A stretch of 64,000 bases of DNA from contig JADYZN010000024.1 of the NCBI GenBank assembly GCA_020853095.1, positions 1 to 64,000 of the forward strand, written 5' to 3'. Position numbers and translations under genes: made by a program. Under the pieces are notes generated by a model, which was not told where the DNA came from, made no database searches, and was given only the letters and a program-made list of their open reading frames with translations. Shown here piece by piece: positions 7,649 to 13,352 of this stretch (position 1 is its first letter; each line of letters starts with the position of its first letter). Source of the DNA: Phycisphaerales bacterium (GTDB lineage Bacteria; Planctomycetota; Phycisphaerae; Tepidisphaerales; Tepidisphaeraceae).

Positions 7649-7809
7649 CGGCGGGGGGCACGGCATGACAAACCATCCTCCAGCGCAATTGACGCGGGGG
7701 AAAGCCGGTGGCATATTGCGCCGATTCATCGGCCACGGATGGCCGAAACGGGGTTGGAGGCGGTCCGGATTGATCCGGAACTTTCAGGTTGACCCATCGT
7801 CTAAAACCA

Positions 7810-8475
7810 ATGTCGAGCCTGAGCCATACACAAGATGAGGCCGACCTGCCCGATGCGATTTCGGGCGATCCGGCACTTATGGCTCGCCTGATGCGGCAGG
7901 CCCGCGAAGGGGACCGCGCCGCCTATGGTCAGATCGTCCGGGCCTGTCAGGACCGGCTGTACAACGCGGTGCTCCGGCTGGTGGGCGACCGCGAAGAAGC
8001 GCAAGAGCTGACGCAGGAAGCCTTTACGCGCGGTTTGATGAAAATCGAGAGTTTTCGTGGCGAGGCCGGCCCATACACCTGGCTGTTTCGCATCGCGATG
8101 AACCTGGCGATCAGCCAGTTGCGCAAGGTTCGACGGCACCGGGTTTTCTCGTTGGACCGACCCGCCGCCACCAAGGGATCGCCGAGGCTGGTTGAGTCGG
8201 ATGATCAGGCGGCGAGCCTCTTGGATCGGGTGGCCCGCGACCCGGCCCCCTTGCCGTCCGAACAGTTGGAACAGCGCGAGCGTGACCAGCAGGTTCTGGC
8301 GGCTTTGGGCCGGCTTGAAGCCGATTATCGCGCGGTGCTGGTGATGCGGGACATCGAAGGATTCGACTATCAACAGATGGCCGACATCCTGGAGATGCCG
8401 CTGGGAACGTTAAAAAGCAGGTTGTTCCGGGCGCGGTTGGCGCTGCGGGAACAACTCAAAGGATGCGATCTGTAG
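7810..8475 (+). CDS. ECF-type RNA polymerase sigma factor
   Basis: 221 residues from ATG 7810 (a TTG at 7789 is an alternative). Region 2 spans about residues 35-110 with AVLRLVGDREEAQELTQEAF (region 2.2-like) and TWLFRIAMNLAISQLRK (2.4-like). Region 4 is at about 165-218 with RAVLVMRDIEGFDYQQMADIL and LGTLKSRLFRARLALRE, the helix-turn-helix that reads the -35 element. Regions 1 and 3 are absent, as in group 4 sigma factors. A membrane anti-sigma-like gene follows 58 nt downstream, the usual arrangement for signal-controlled ECF factors. The signal and target promoters are unknown. Confidence 0.92.
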   Translation: MSSLSHTQDEADLPDAISGDPALMARLMRQAREGDRAAYGQIVRACQDRLYNAVLRLVGDREEAQELTQEAFTRGLMKIESFRGEAGPYTWLFRIAMNLAISQLRKVRRHRVFSLDRPAATKGSPRLVESDDQAASLLDRVARDPAPLPSEQLEQRERDQQVLAALGRLEADYRAVLVMRDIEGFDYQQMADILEMPLGTLKSRLFRARLALREQLKGCDL

Positions 8476-8533
8476 GGTCCGCACCCCGTGCGGGCGATGC
8501 GGGACTCGAAGTGATGGCCGGTTGCGGCGGTCG

Positions 8534-10051
8534 ATGAACATGGCACAAAACGCGGAAAACATCGAAGCCAAGCTGTGTGCTTATGTCGATGGCGAGCTGG
8601 ATGCCAAGGGGCGCGCCGAGATCGAAAAGCACCTGCAAAGCAATCCGCAGCATCGAAAGCTGCTGGAGGCGCTCTCCCGGACGCATCGTTTCGTCGCCGA
8701 GCTGCCGCGCGAAAAAGCGCCGCCGGAAATCCTTGAAAATCTTCAGAGCCAGCTTGAGCGGGCGGTGTTGTTGGGAGATGTGGGGGATGAGGAGTCCGAT
8801 GGTGTCCCGCGTATCAGCCGCTGGCCGCAGATCATGTCTCTGGCGGCGATCGTGTTGCTGACGGTGGGGTTGGGGGTGATTTTATATTTCATGCTCCCGC
8901 CGCTGGGTCGTCAGGTCGATTCGTATTCCATTGTTCAGGATGCGCCGGTGGCCACAAGGCCGGCCGAGATGCCGCAGCCCGCATTGCAGGAAGCCGCGGC
9001 CGTCCCGAAGGACAATGCGAAGGAGGGGAGCGCTGCGCGATCGGCGCTGTCGGCGCGCAACACCAACATCTCGCCGACCCATCCCAGGCAGGATGAAATC
9101 GACGTGATTCAAGTTGTGCGACGACGACTGTCGGCCGCCGCCAACGAAACAGGATCGCCCAATGCCCAGCCTCATGTCCTGCTGGTGGTCAATACCGATG
9201 ATCCATCCACCACGCAGCGACAGTTGGTGGGTTATCTGCAAAACAATCAGATTCAATGGAAGGCCGTTGGCCAGGAAATCGCGACCACCCGGCCGGATCA
9301 ATCGGCGGCCGGGATGGAACAATCTTTTGCCGCGCCGGCCTCTCCCACAACCACCACCGCTCAGGAGTTGGAGGCCACCACCCAGCCGGCGGAGCCTTCC
9401 AAGGTCGCCCATGACCAGAACCAGATGGCCGAGTCGGATGATCTGATTGTCTGTCCGAACATGACCATCCAGCAGGCCAACGAACTGGCCGGCGCCCTGC
9501 CCATGTGGCGGCAAGGGCAGCGGGCGTTGGTGGTGAGCTATTTCGATGCCGTGCCGGCGCCGGCCGATTCGCAACCGACCTCCGCGCCGTCGCCGGAGCC
9601 GATTCCATCCGCCGTCATGACCGAACAACAGGTGCAAACCACTCAACCGGCCGGGCCAACCACCCTGCCGGCGACGGTGGTTGAGCCGCGCATCCTTCAA
9701 ACGGGCGATCGCGTGCATATTCAGATTGCTCTGGAGGCGGATCTGGAATTGAAAAAGGAGATTCCCATCGGCCAGGGCGGCACGATCATCCTGCCGCTGG
9801 TTGGTGAGATTCAGGCGGTTGGCCAGACCGAAGCCCAACTGGCCGAAGCCATCGCCGAGGCGTATCGCACGCGCAACATCTCCCAGCAACCGCGGGTGAA
9901 GGTGAGTTATCTCGACCCGGCCGACCAGCCGCCGCCGGTCGCGGTGGCGATCTATCTGCAAAACGAGATCGTCCAGCCAACCCCATCCGCGGAGCAGCCG
10001 ACCACATCGCCCTCCGAGCCAACCACCGCGCCGGCAGAGCCAACGCCATGA
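8534..10051 (+). CDS. Anti-sigma-like membrane protein fused to a polysaccharide-export domain
   Basis: About 505 residues (ATG 8534; ATG 8540 also possible). Residues 10-75 resemble the cytoplasmic anti-sigma domain (LCAYVDGELDAKGRAEIEKHL) but lack the His-Cys-Cys zinc ligands. One transmembrane helix lies at about 99-121 (IMSLAAIVLLTVGLGVILYFM). The outer part has Pro/Thr/Gln-rich linkers, a conserved-looking block at about 195-330, and from 382 a Wza-type polysaccharide export module (RILQTGDRVHIQI, GTIILPLVGEIQAVGQTEAQLAEAI, RVKVSYL). The tail is Pro/Thr-rich. Context suggests it restrains the upstream ECF factor; the export-like domain could be the sensor. The fusion is unusual. Confidence 0.75.
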   Translation: MNMAQNAENIEAKLCAYVDGELDAKGRAEIEKHLQSNPQHRKLLEALSRTHRFVAELPREKAPPEILENLQSQLERAVLLGDVGDEESDGVPRISRWPQIMSLAAIVLLTVGLGVILYFMLPPLGRQVDSYSIVQDAPVATRPAEMPQPALQEAAAVPKDNAKEGSAARSALSARNTNISPTHPRQDEIDVIQVVRRRLSAAANETGSPNAQPHVLLVVNTDDPSTTQRQLVGYLQNNQIQWKAVGQEIATTRPDQSAAGMEQSFAAPASPTTTTAQELEATTQPAEPSKVAHDQNQMAESDDLIVCPNMTIQQANELAGALPMWRQGQRALVVSYFDAVPAPADSQPTSAPSPEPIPSAVMTEQQVQTTQPAGPTTLPATVVEPRILQTGDRVHIQIALEADLELKKEIPIGQGGTIILPLVGEIQAVGQTEAQLAEAIAEAYRTRNISQQPRVKVSYLDPADQPPPVAVAIYLQNEIVQPTPSAEQPTTSPSEPTTAPAEPTP

Positions 10052-10083: not shown

Positions 10084-10470
10084 TTAGGATAACATTATTG
10101 CGAAACAGGCGCCGATCAACAGGAAAAGGATGCACTGGCCGATCCAGAAACCGATCGCCAGCCCCCGCATGGTGTTGGTTCGGAAGATGAAGATGGAACC
10201 GATGTTGAACAGCGCCAGGAACGTTCCGCCGACGGCGAAGAATGCCACATTGGATCGAATTATATCACTGGTCATGAGGATCAGGATGACCGTGGTAAAC
10301 AGGGCGCCGCCCGCCAGGACCATGCCGACAAAAACCTGCCAGATGGCGATGTGCCGGGGGGCCAGGTCCGGTACGCCATAATTCAACAGACGAGGCCGTG
10401 GCGGGGGCAACGGCGGCGGCGTCGAGGAGGGTTCGAGTGGTCGAAGCGGGATGGGATCTTCTTCGTTCAT
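10084..10470 (-). CDS. Small membrane protein, third gene of the Tes-like/Lgt-like operon
   Basis: 128 residues of unknown function. The N-terminal 40 residues are Pro-rich and cytosol-like (PPPLPPPRPR); then come about three hydrophobic helices (about 43-68, 74-95, 104-127) with small spacers. The start codon lies 4 nt beyond the stop of the radical SAM gene, so translation is probably coupled. It has no recognisable catalytic residues. Given its neighbours it might scaffold a membrane-bound lipid-modifying enzyme, which is inference only. Confidence 0.7.
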   Translation of the reverse strand: MNEEDPIPLRPLEPSSTPPPLPPPRPRLLNYGVPDLAPRHIAIWQVFVGMVLAGGALFTTVILILMTSDIIRSNVAFFAVGGTFLALFNIGSIFIFRTNTMRGLAIGFWIGQCILFLLIGACFAIMLS

Positions 10471-10474
10471 TGAA

Positions 10475-11884
10475 TCACCTTAATCCGCTGAGATTGCGCA
10501 GCGGCGTGAGTCGCTGTTGTTCCTTGTCGTCGCGATAGAACAGGTTGTAGGTGTCGAAGGGGATGATTCGTCCATCGGGATGGGCGATGTGGACGCAGGT
10601 TTTTTTGACGCTGCGGATGTCCATGTCGTAGGCATCCAGAAACTTCATGATGATGATGCGGAAGACGTTGTCGTAGGTGATCGATTCGGGGACATCGACC
10701 AGCGGCAGGCAGCAGAGGAGCTGTTTGAGGCTGGTGGCGGCGCTGGCGGGGGAATGTCCTGTGGAAAAGGTGGCGAAGAGCCGATCGCGCAAAGCCTGGT
10801 TTTTTTCGTAGACGATCGTGCTGCCTTCGCTTTGCAGCAGCACCTCCCGCGGGATCAGGCCGGTCAGGGGAAGGACCGTGTCGCCGAGTTTCAGGGCGTA
10901 GGCCATCGCCAGGCAATCGGGGTGGCAGGGGACGGGGATGACGTCGGCCTCGCCGAAGACGGTGGTTTGCTGGAGGATTTTCCGTCGGACTTCGGTCAAC
11001 GTCAGGCGGTCGGTGGCCGGATCGTACGAATCCAGCCGGCCGGCGACCTGGATGGGCTGGAACGTGACGCCCCGCACGCAGCGTTGTTTGAGGGCGAAGT
11101 CGATGATCGGGCCGATCTCATCGTCGTTCAAACCCTTTTTGAGCGTGACCACCAGCGTGGTGGAGACGTTGAAGCGGTTGAGGTGTTCCAGCGCCCGTTG
11201 ACGGGTGGTTCGCAGGTCCTCGCCGCGCAGTTCGCGCAGCGGATGTTCCTTTGACGAATCCCATTGCAGGTAGACCTCGAATCCTGGCATGTAGGAGCAG
11301 AGTCGCCGGGCGAAGTCGGGATCGGCGGCGATCTTGACGCCGTTGGTGTTCAGCATCAGGTGCTTGATCGGGCGGCGTTTGGCGGCGTCGAGGATGTCCC
11401 AGAACCGCGGATGGATCGTCGGCTCGCCGCCGCTGATCTGCACGACGTCCGGTTCGCCTTCGTTGCGGACGATGCAGTCGAGCATGAATTCGATCTGTTC
11501 CATCGTGCGGTGCTGGTGCATCCGCGCGGGCGAGGAATCGGAATAGCAGACCGGGCAGGTCAAATTACACCCATCGGTGACTTCCAGCAGCGTCAGGCAG
11601 GAGTGCTGTTCGTGATCCGGGCACAGGCCGCAATCGTAGGGGCAGCCGTATCGGATGGGGGAATTGAACTTCAGCGGCATCTGGCTGGGTTTGAGAAACC
11701 GGCGGGTCATCTGCCAGTAATCCGCATCGTCGGCGATCAATACCTTTTCCTGGCGATGCTCCGGGCACCATTTCTGCAAATAGACCCGGCCGTTCTCGAT
11801 CAACACCTTGGCTTCCACCTTGCGCAGGCATTTGGAACACAGGGCGTTGGTCAGCTCAACGAACAGATAAGGGCGGTCGGGCAT
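10475..11884 (-). CDS. Tes-like radical SAM protein (tetraether lipid synthase family)
   Basis: 469 residues. Cysteine layout in order: N-terminal C16-x2-C19 with C40; C81-x3-C85-x2-C88 with C96 (YGCPYDCGLCPDHEQHSC); the radical SAM motif C106-x3-C110-x2-C113 (TDGCNLTCPVCY); GGEPT at 152-156; and a C-terminal set C320, C324, C391-C392 and C430 (KKTCVHIAHPDGRIIPFDTYN). This multi-cluster plan is that of archaeal Tes/GDGT-MAS and its bacterial homologues, which join lipid tails by C-C bonds between unactivated carbons. The start overlaps the end of an Lgt-like gene by 29 nt. Membrane-lipid tail coupling is the leading hypothesis, but many bacterial homologues are uncharacterised, so the substrate is open. 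Confidence 0.82.
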   Translation of the reverse strand: MPDRPYLFVELTNALCSKCLRKVEAKVLIENGRVYLQKWCPEHRQEKVLIADDADYWQMTRRFLKPSQMPLKFNSPIRYGCPYDCGLCPDHEQHSCLTLLEVTDGCNLTCPVCYSDSSPARMHQHRTMEQIEFMLDCIVRNEGEPDVVQISGGEPTIHPRFWDILDAAKRRPIKHLMLNTNGVKIAADPDFARRLCSYMPGFEVYLQWDSSKEHPLRELRGEDLRTTRQRALEHLNRFNVSTTLVVTLKKGLNDDEIGPIIDFALKQRCVRGVTFQPIQVAGRLDSYDPATDRLTLTEVRRKILQQTTVFGEADVIPVPCHPDCLAMAYALKLGDTVLPLTGLIPREVLLQSEGSTIVYEKNQALRDRLFATFSTGHSPASAATSLKQLLCCLPLVDVPESITYDNVFRIIIMKFLDAYDMDIRSVKKTCVHIAHPDGRIIPFDTYNLFYRDDKEQQRLTPLRNLSGLR

Positions 11885-12641
11885 AGGGGGTTCCCATGAA
11901 TTGTCTTGTCAATCCGATGCCGCACGCGGCGACGCCCGCCAGCGAGGCAAGCTGGATGGCGCTGAGATTGAACGCGATGGTTTCGCGCGGCTTGATGAAT
12001 TCAACGCCGAATCGCCACATAAGATATCCGAGCATGAACAGTCGAAACAACCGGCCGGTGTTTCCCAATCGCCGCCGAAGCGCGAACAACCCCGCCGCCA
12101 GGGCCATCAGGAAGACGATCTCGTATAGCTGGGTCGGATGCCGGATGATCCCATCGCCAAAATTCACCCCCCACGGCAGCGACGTGGCGACGCCGTAGGT
12201 GTGGTCATTCAGGCCGGTCAAAAAACAGCCAACCCGGCCGACGGCGATGCCGAAAATCAGGGGAAAGACCATCAGGTCGCCGGTGGAATGGTTGATTCCC
12301 AGCCGTCGTTTGGCGATTTCAACGCCGATCCACCCTCCCAGCAGCCCGCCGACGATGGTTTTGCCTCCCATCCAGATGCGCGGGTCGTTCCAGTGGGGCC
12401 GGTAATAATGGAAGGATTCGGCCCAGGCCAATGATTTTGACCCCACGACCGCTCCCATCACCACCGCGACGATGATCCAGAGATTGGCCTCCAACCCCAG
12501 CACATCGGCCCGGCCGGCCATGCGGGCGCGCCGGCGAAGCATTCGATAGAGCCAGAACCCGCCGCTGTAGGCGATCAGTTCCATCACCAGATGCGCGGGC
12601 AACCGATGGCCAAACAGCGAAAATTCAACCGGAAAGGTCAC
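11856..12641 (-). CDS. Lgt-like (prolipoprotein diacylglyceryl transferase family) membrane protein
   Basis: 261 residues, polytopic, GTG start at 12641. Lgt family blocks: GGKTIVGGLLGGWIG (93-106), GRVGCFLTGLNDHTYG (135-150), IRHPTQLYE (166-174) and MWRFGVEFIKPRE (208-220). Lgt moves diacylglycerol from phosphatidylglycerol to the lipobox Cys. Here the essential His of the HGG motif is V98, and the acidic residue after GR-x-G-x-x-x-x-G is missing, while the HPxQLYE His and the final R/E pair remain. It overlaps the Tes-like gene by 29 nt and is probably co-transcribed. It may bind a phosphatidylglycerol-like substrate without being the housekeeping Lgt; that last point is inference. Confidence 0.8.
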   Translation of the reverse strand: MTFPVEFSLFGHRLPAHLVMELIAYSGGFWLYRMLRRRARMAGRADVLGLEANLWIIVAVVMGAVVGSKSLAWAESFHYYRPHWNDPRIWMGGKTIVGGLLGGWIGVEIAKRRLGINHSTGDLMVFPLIFGIAVGRVGCFLTGLNDHTYGVATSLPWGVNFGDGIIRHPTQLYEIVFLMALAAGLFALRRRLGNTGRLFRLFMLGYLMWRFGVEFIKPRETIAFNLSAIQLASLAGVAACGIGLTRQFMGTPYARPPLSVR

Positions 12642-12683: not shown

Positions 12684-13022
12684 TTACGCCGTTTCCGGCT
12701 CGATGATGACGGCGGTTCCATAGCAGAGGACTTCGGTGGCGGCGAATTTTCCGCCGATTTCGGAGGCGTCGTAACGCAGGCCGATGATGGCGTTGGCGCC
12801 GATGGCGCGGGCATGGTCGATCAGCAGTTCATATGCCTGCTGGCGGGTTTGTTCGCACATTTCGGTGTAGGCGCCGATGTGGCCGCCGATGATCGATTTG
12901 AGGCCTCCCATGAACCCCTGGGCGATGGTGGGGGAGCGGACGATGATCCCGCGGGCGATGCCGAGGTATTGTCGGATGCGGTATCCTTCGATGGTGAACG
13001 TTGTCGTGACGGGAAAGGACAT
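12684..13022 (-). CDS. YbjQ/UPF0145 family protein
   Basis: 112 residues from ATG 13022, preceded by AGGAGA. Family blocks are GYRIRQYLGIARGIIVRSP, a GGHIGAYTEMCEQTRQQA helix, and HARAIGANAIIGLRYDASE followed by EVLCYGTAVII. The fold is a small pentamer-forming beta/alpha protein formerly labelled a heavy-metal-binding domain; its cellular role is not established. Length matches the family (about 105-115). It stands 42 nt upstream of the Lgt-like start on the same strand and might be co-transcribed with that operon, although the operon has its own candidate promoter in the gap. Confidence 0.88.
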   Translation of the reverse strand: MSFPVTTTFTIEGYRIRQYLGIARGIIVRSPTIAQGFMGGLKSIIGGHIGAYTEMCEQTRQQAYELLIDHARAIGANAIIGLRYDASEIGGKFAATEVLCYGTAVIIEPETA

Positions 13023-13352
13023 GGCCCGGTTCTCCTGGTGGTCAATCAGGTTATCGCCTCCGCATGAGTCCGGCAACCATTTGCCACTGCGTTGGGATCG
13101 ACCGGCTGAGACAGGGGGAAAGCCGGCGTAAAAATCGTATTTTTCGGGTTGAATTGTCTTGAAAAGAGGGTGGATCGGTCGCACAATATGGGATGGTTGC
13201 AGGCCGGATGGGATGACCGATAAATCGGACATCGGGCGTGTGACAGCATTGATTGATCGTCGGCCGATGGAGTGGCCGATAGTCCGACCAGGTGGCGGCG
13301 TTTTTGGCCGCAGGTGATGTGTCGGGCCTGTAAAGGCTCAAGGATGGGCAAA
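13023..13352. other. Divergent intergenic region between the ybjQ-like gene and murA
   Basis: 330 nt without a convincing gene. A weak promoter candidate for murA is TTGAAA (13159-13164), an 18-nt spacer and ACAATA (13183-13188), about 165 nt before the murA start. No terminator or riboswitch-like structure was recognised. Confidence 0.4.

Follow-up and report, generated by a model that had tools for sequence, protein, structure and literature searches.

Among the described enzymes closest to the proteins studied here are the radical SAM enzyme tetraether lipid synthase (Tes) and the membrane enzyme Lgt (phosphatidylglycerol:prolipoprotein diacylglyceryl transferase). The C-terminal cluster of Tes stores the substrate radical as a carbon–sulfur bond, and the function of bacterial Tes homologues is a question posed in the Tes papers. 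In Lgt, R143 and R239 are essential and sit at the glycerol-phosphate of phosphatidylglycerol (PG), and H103 is tied to binding of the lipobox peptide and to substrate choice (PMC4728403, PMC13251419). Y26, H103, and N146 are likewise essential in the E. coli enzyme; the N146C change and changes at H103 are also known in other Lgts (PMC13251419). Here, we describe a conserved bacterial locus that joins a relative of each enzyme to a small membrane protein. A literature search, covering papers outside subscription, found none in which an Lgt and a radical SAM enzyme form one system. The components belong to new families within known superfamilies, and the whole module is undescribed as far as the literature was searched.

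The locus lies in a 64,000-nucleotide stretch of a Phycisphaerales genome (contig JADYZN010000024.1, positions 1 to 64,000), hereafter the window. Three open reading frames run back to back on the minus strand: the Lgt-like gene overlaps the radical SAM gene by 29 nt (11856-11884), and a 4-nt gap (10471-10474) separates the latter from the small-protein gene. A preliminary description had given this layout, and the exact coordinates agree. It had also called the first product Lgt-like, which Pfam LGT bears out (93.1 bits against a gathering cut-off of 24.9), and the third membrane-embedded; the third product is indeed a small membrane protein and, beyond that, carries a C-terminal Cys found across phyla. 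The features are as follows.

11856-12641, minus strand: Lgt-like protein, 261 aa, GTG start; a second, non-canonical Lgt paralogue
12360-12362, minus strand: K94, a new invariant residue of the Lgt-like family
12234-12236, minus strand: codon of R136, equivalent to E. coli R143, kept
12225-12227, minus strand: C139 in place of E. coli N146, changed
12012-12014, minus strand: codon of R210, equivalent to E. coli R239, kept
10475-11884, minus strand: radical SAM enzyme of the Tes superfamily, in a separate family, 469 aa
11756-11839, minus strand: rubredoxin-type site C16-x2-C19-x20-C40-x2-H43, equivalent to Tes C9/C12/C33/H36 (PMC9433317)
11612-11644, minus strand: N-terminal auxiliary cluster C81, C85, C88, and H91, equivalent to Tes C73/C77/C80 plus a conserved His (same source)
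11546-11569, minus strand: radical SAM CX3CX2C motif, C106/C110/C113
10913-10927, minus strand: C320 (family-invariant) and C324 (equivalent to Tes C338; Ala or Ser in 26 of 59 members)
10709-10714, minus strand: C391-C392, near-invariant in the family and missing from Tes
10595-10597, minus strand: C430, family-invariant, adjoining the Tes C455 position, which is mostly Ser or Thr here
10084-10470, minus strand: Cys-tail small membrane protein, 128 aa, with a Pro-rich N-tail, hydrophobic helices, and a C-terminal helix
10378-10380, minus strand: Y31 of the PL.Y-type N-tail motif of planctomycete Cys-tail proteins, invariant in alignment A4
10105-10107, minus strand: C122, the candidate acceptor Cys, invariant in alignment A4 (n=13)

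A YbjQ-family gene (12684-13232) lies 42 nt upstream of the Lgt-like gene but is a neighbor only within the same genus, and we rejected it as part of the module because its conservation is so limited. Also in the window, the gene at 8522-10051 encodes a protein that combines an N-terminal anti-sigma zinc finger with a polysaccharide-export (Poly_export) domain; a sigma-factor-like gene (7789-8475) adjoins it.

Our class sample comprised 298 genomes, with radical SAM orthologues defined by E < 1e-100, a level below which identity drops to about 30%. Orthologues were present in 14 of the 298 genomes, and all 14 also carried the Lgt-like protein; only two further class genomes, both drafts, had the Lgt-like protein at that level without a radical SAM orthologue. 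The Lgt-like gene was upstream on the same strand at 13 of the 13 other class orthologue loci examined, sometimes with one to several small membrane-protein genes between the two. In three planctomycete loci (L046, L047, and L048), a single reading frame (707 to 782 codons) encodes the Lgt-like and radical SAM proteins as a fusion. In other Planctomycetota, divergent relatives of the radical SAM gene likewise adjoin Lgt-like genes, often in the reverse order. From a scan of named genomes, which yielded 537 radical SAM relatives, we took the best 80 (61-90% identity); these span Bacillota, Cyanobacteria, Acidobacteria, Bacteroidota, Planctomycetota, Verrucomicrobia, Pseudomonadota, and candidate phyla. 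The Lgt-like gene was linked in 73 of these best 80 of 537 (72 upstream; one downstream, L087), and three of the 80 loci end at contig edges. In the genomes with unlinked or contig-edge loci, the Lgt-like protein was found elsewhere, as a weak match (76 bits) in the small genome G533. A plasmid scan revealed the same tight three-gene set in Persicobacter (Bacteroidota); a Mycolicibacterium match from that scan (39%) was rejected as another cluster type, with a methyltransferase. A search for viral relatives found none. One record with the module (L097) is labeled Bacillus subtilis DE0224, a label that may be a misidentification. Conservation of the linkage across phyla puts the arrangement far beyond chance. 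We conclude that the three genes are almost certainly one module, which is retained across about 10 bacterial phyla. The earlier suggestion of a coherent three-gene set not known as a described system therefore holds, both in the conserved linkage and in the outcome of the literature search.

The radical SAM protein matches Pfam Radical_SAM and Zn_ribbon_HMPTM, the latter an HMPTM/Tes-type zinc ribbon at the N-terminus. Its closest solved structure by sequence is M. jannaschii Tes (7tol, E 4e-66), and its predicted structure matches GDGT-MAS (7tom) over the full length (Z 48.0, rmsd 2.9, 413 residues), with the next unrelated entry at Z 19.7. Against the Tes profile NCBIfam NF045702 it scored 277.9 bits, below the cut-off of 450, which four planctomycete Tes proteins passed in the same test. 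The best NCBIfam match, almost full length, was the TrsS profile NF045646, at 310.6 bits against a cut-off of 490 that no planctomycete in the sample passed. In a tree built by a quick search, with some long branches, the window family formed its own clade (SH-aLRT 100), and MJ0619 and planctomycete Tes formed another (100). Filing the protein as Tes or TrsS is thus ruled out by the cut-offs, the tree, and the cluster ligands described next. True Tes was found neither in the window genome nor in its sampled family mates and is present in 32 of 120 class genomes. Separately, clusters of the class Phycisphaerae (L049-L054, e.g. L054:2301-5653) contain two tandem Tes/TrsS-like radical SAM genes beside ketoacyl-synthase-like, ketoreductase-like, and more radical SAM genes, with the Lgt-like gene absent; they possibly represent an undescribed fatty-acid pathway.

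All 59 family members have the ligands of the rubredoxin, N-terminal, and radical SAM clusters without exception. At the Tes positions C338/C455/C470, by contrast, the family has C/A/S, S/T/A, and D/E, whereas these cysteines are conserved in Tes (9/9) and in divergent relatives; the Tes Tyr459 position is Ile. We take C338/C455/C470 to be the probable Tes C-cluster ligands from the conserved columns of the alignment, the PMC9433317 text consulted naming only Met439. Since the Tes C-cluster stores the substrate radical and its ligands are changed here, the chemistry of the window enzyme may differ. The model falls below pLDDT 50 at residues 372-402, too low to place C391 and C392, and a joint cluster of C320, C391, C392, and C430 would therefore be a guess. 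The multi-cluster Tes plan attributed to this protein in the preliminary description thus stands for three sets of ligands and fails for the C-cluster, which is not fully kept, and its placement in the Tes clade is contradicted by the tree, by the profile score, and by the missing ligands.

That description had read the locus as membrane-lipid remodeling. In such a module, the radical SAM enzyme would couple or otherwise modify phospholipid tails, with the Lgt-like protein feeding it PG or diacylglycerol and the small protein serving as an accessory subunit. The full-length Tes fold and the shared rubredoxin and N-terminal ligands agree with this account, as does the fusion of the radical SAM enzyme with a PG-binding enzyme, but the family falls in a clade apart from Tes and no longer has the Tes C-cluster ligands. 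E. coli phospholipids sit in the Tes pockets (PMC9433317), and the literature already notes bacterial Tes homologues of unknown reaction. The hosts of the module, however, include Bacillus, Flavobacterium, and Cyanobacteria. To our knowledge, membrane-spanning lipids are not known in these organisms. Nor does remodeling explain why the small protein has a conserved tail Cys or why that tail is associated with the Lgt-like gene (see below); a conserved Cys after the last helix points to protein lipidation and not only to changes in bulk lipid. The interpretation is therefore partly supported, and as an account of the whole module we consider it unlikely.

The Lgt-like protein is not its genome's sole Lgt, a role we rejected because a canonical copy lies elsewhere (G000:C36, 176 bits). 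It scored 54 bits against the NCBI Lgt equivalog TIGR00544 (cut-off 118.9) and is under the NCBI Lgt cut-offs generally. Its AlphaFold model (pLDDT 88.5) has the Lgt fold, the only Foldseek match below 0.001 being E. coli Lgt (5azb, E 1.7e-7, TM 0.65). We compared residues in an alignment of 28 sequences and a residue table that included E. coli Lgt. R136, R210, and G150 (E. coli G154) are invariant in the 28 Lgt-like sequences, and the Y235 equivalent is retained in the window protein. Besides the replacement of N146 by Cys, Y26 is changed to H17, H103 to Val, and R246 to Lys. Retention of the PG-handling arginines together with alteration of the lipobox-linked residues fits a PG-handling enzyme with a different acceptor.

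No Pfam or NCBIfam family was found for the window small protein; PRIMA1, DUF4064, and other weak Pfam matches were under their cut-offs and were rejected. The protein ends FLLIGACFAIMLS, its C-terminal helix finishing in ...FLLIGA-C-FAIMLS, and G107 is invariant alongside C122 and Y31 in the planctomycete alignment A4. Cys-tail proteins diverge widely and share an end made of basic residues, a glycine-rich hydrophobic helix, and a Cys, which is usually followed by Phe, another aromatic residue, or Gly and then 3 to 15 residues. The four residues before the Cys (-4 to -1) mostly read L-N-[AG]-[AG] or L-x-G-x, with no strict lipobox. By eye, the window protein has a Pro-rich polar N-tail in place of an N-terminal signal peptide with a lipobox. 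Within the best 80 of 537, a Cys-tail protein lies near the radical SAM gene, downstream or on the same strand, at about 66 of the 80 loci (37/37 in Bacillota, 6/6 in Bacteroidota, and 10/13 in Cyanobacteria). Because the motif was first spotted by eye, we tested its enrichment: it occurs in 33 of 65 hydrophobic small open reading frames just downstream of the radical SAM gene and in 5 of 80 distant ones (p ~8e-10), and in later loci not used to define it in 22 of 34 versus 2 of 36 (p ~1e-7), both p-values being optimistic because the rows are related. The tail was not seen in true Tes loci or in the fatty-acid-type clusters, where control reading frames were few. At E < 1e-5, proteins homologous to the planctomycete Cys-tail proteins are almost confined to module-bearing genomes. 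Positive-inside charge places the K/R loop inside and the tail Cys outside in 66 of 78 proteins, with the opposite in 6. Lgt acts on the outer side of the membrane, which is the predicted side of the tail Cys.

The gene pairings of the small protein at split loci bear on its role. When the two enzymes are encoded apart, the Cys-tail protein adjoins the Lgt-like gene in four of six cases (L206, L213, L149, and L151); it adjoins the radical SAM gene in Nostoc, and none was seen at L207. Genome G080 has a fusion whose Lgt part lacks R210, K94, and C139 and, elsewhere, an intact Lgt-like copy followed by four tandem Cys-tail proteins (L151:6038-7891). The split-locus pattern and G080 favor a link of the small protein to the Lgt-like enzyme, as its partner or its substrate. 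In several Paenibacillaceae, the usual small protein is missing and an upstream zinc-finger protein has the same kind of helix-Cys end. These B-box-like zinc-finger proteins (L095:4802-5113 and those of L075, L079, L080, and L089-L093) have the helix end LLLTIC-GA, and their genes lie directly upstream of the Lgt-like gene.

Could the small protein merely be an anchor, scaffold, or regulator with a structural Cys, the enzymes acting on an unrelated lipid? It is helical and without a known domain, and a search of the window genome with the planctomycete profile found one main copy but no broad range of Cys-tail substrates, all of which would suit such a role; yet the recurrence of the tail on unrelated N-terminal domains, the tandem copies, and the association with the Lgt-like gene when the enzymes split make it very unlikely. 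A RiPP-like maturation would instead have the radical SAM enzyme modify the small protein, for example by forming a thioether at the tail Cys or altering the cytoplasmic N-tail, with the Lgt-like enzyme adding or presenting lipid. Tandem, divergent small proteins that have a short motif in common and are encoded next to a radical SAM gene do resemble substrates, and a RiPP-lipoprotein hybrid that uses Lgt is known in another family, but structurally the nearest match is an enzyme of lipids, not of peptides, and the tail Cys is predicted away from the cytoplasm. An N-tail tyrosine motif common to planctomycete members also fits, but it was not seen in those of Bacillota or Bacteroidota. Overall, RiPP-like maturation seems improbable.

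We favor, at a probability of roughly one in two, a reading in which the Lgt-like enzyme lipidates the tail Cys and the radical SAM enzyme modifies the lipid or its attachment. The Lgt-like membrane enzyme would take diacylglycerol from PG and attach it to the tail Cys, at the outer end of the small protein's last helix; this Cys would thus be a lipobox-like site, C-terminal instead of N-terminal. On the cytoplasmic side, the radical SAM enzyme might abstract a hydrogen from the lipid chain or the tail, before or after lipidation, for example to cross-link the lipid or functionalize it with sulfur or carbon, or to act on its supply. For lipidation of the tail Cys by the Lgt-like enzyme, we put the chances at about even, on the strength of the family's chemistry, the retained residues, the geometry, and the genomic association; the nature of the radical SAM step on the lipid is speculative. 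Against the lipidation reading, the tail has no strict lipobox, H103 and N146, both essential in E. coli Lgt, are changed in the Lgt-like protein, about 14 of the 80 loci (best 80 of 537) have no Cys-tail protein nearby, and in Nostoc the tail protein keeps to the radical SAM gene. In addition, because the radical SAM enzyme is cytoplasmic and the Cys is predicted to be outside, a direct hand-over requires that the lipid chains reach the enzyme. One version, a membrane-spanning lipid anchor in which the radical SAM enzyme would join the chains of the tail-Cys lipid to an inner-leaflet lipid, we regard as quite unlikely.

The module makes the question of bacterial Tes homologues testable, since it supplies a partner enzyme, a candidate substrate, and one candidate atom, the thiol of the tail Cys, and it is carried by growable hosts (Paenibacillus, Flavobacterium, and Cyanobacteria). 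Lipidation of the tail, if it occurs, would extend lipoprotein modification beyond N-terminal lipoboxes and give some bacterial "second Lgt" genes a function. The module also urges caution with metagenomic data: its enzyme is Tes-like and not Tes, and Tes-like genes need not signal tetraether lipids.

Compared with Tes/GDGT-MAS (MJ0619, NF045702, 7tol/7tom), the window family has the same fold and the same rubredoxin, N-terminal, and radical SAM cluster ligands but forms a separate clade (277.9 versus 450 bits), swaps C338/C455/C470, gains C320/C391/C392/C430, replaces Tyr459 with Ile, and is joined to an Lgt-like gene. TrsS (NF045646) is the best NCBIfam match, at 310.6 bits over almost the full length, yet the window protein is far under 490 bits and is without Sec. 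The Lgt-like protein shares with Lgt the fold and the equivalents of R143, R239, Y235, and G154; unlike Lgt, it is a second copy, is linked to a radical SAM gene, and carries Y26H, H103V, N146C, and R246K. Among known systems, the bacterial membrane-spanning lipid synthase Mss, reported to couple fatty-acid tails, compares by its described function. The closest published idea to the proposed tail-Cys lipidation is MYXO-CTERM/myxosortase, which also has an invariant Cys by a helix in the C-terminal region and for which lipidation by an Lgt-like enzyme has been proposed. The MYXO-CTERM Cys, however, precedes its helix, a cytoplasmic Arg cluster follows that helix, the C-terminus is cytoplasmic, and no radical SAM enzyme is involved, whereas the Cys-tail protein has the order K/R, helix, Cys, and short tail, with its C-terminus predicted to be outside.
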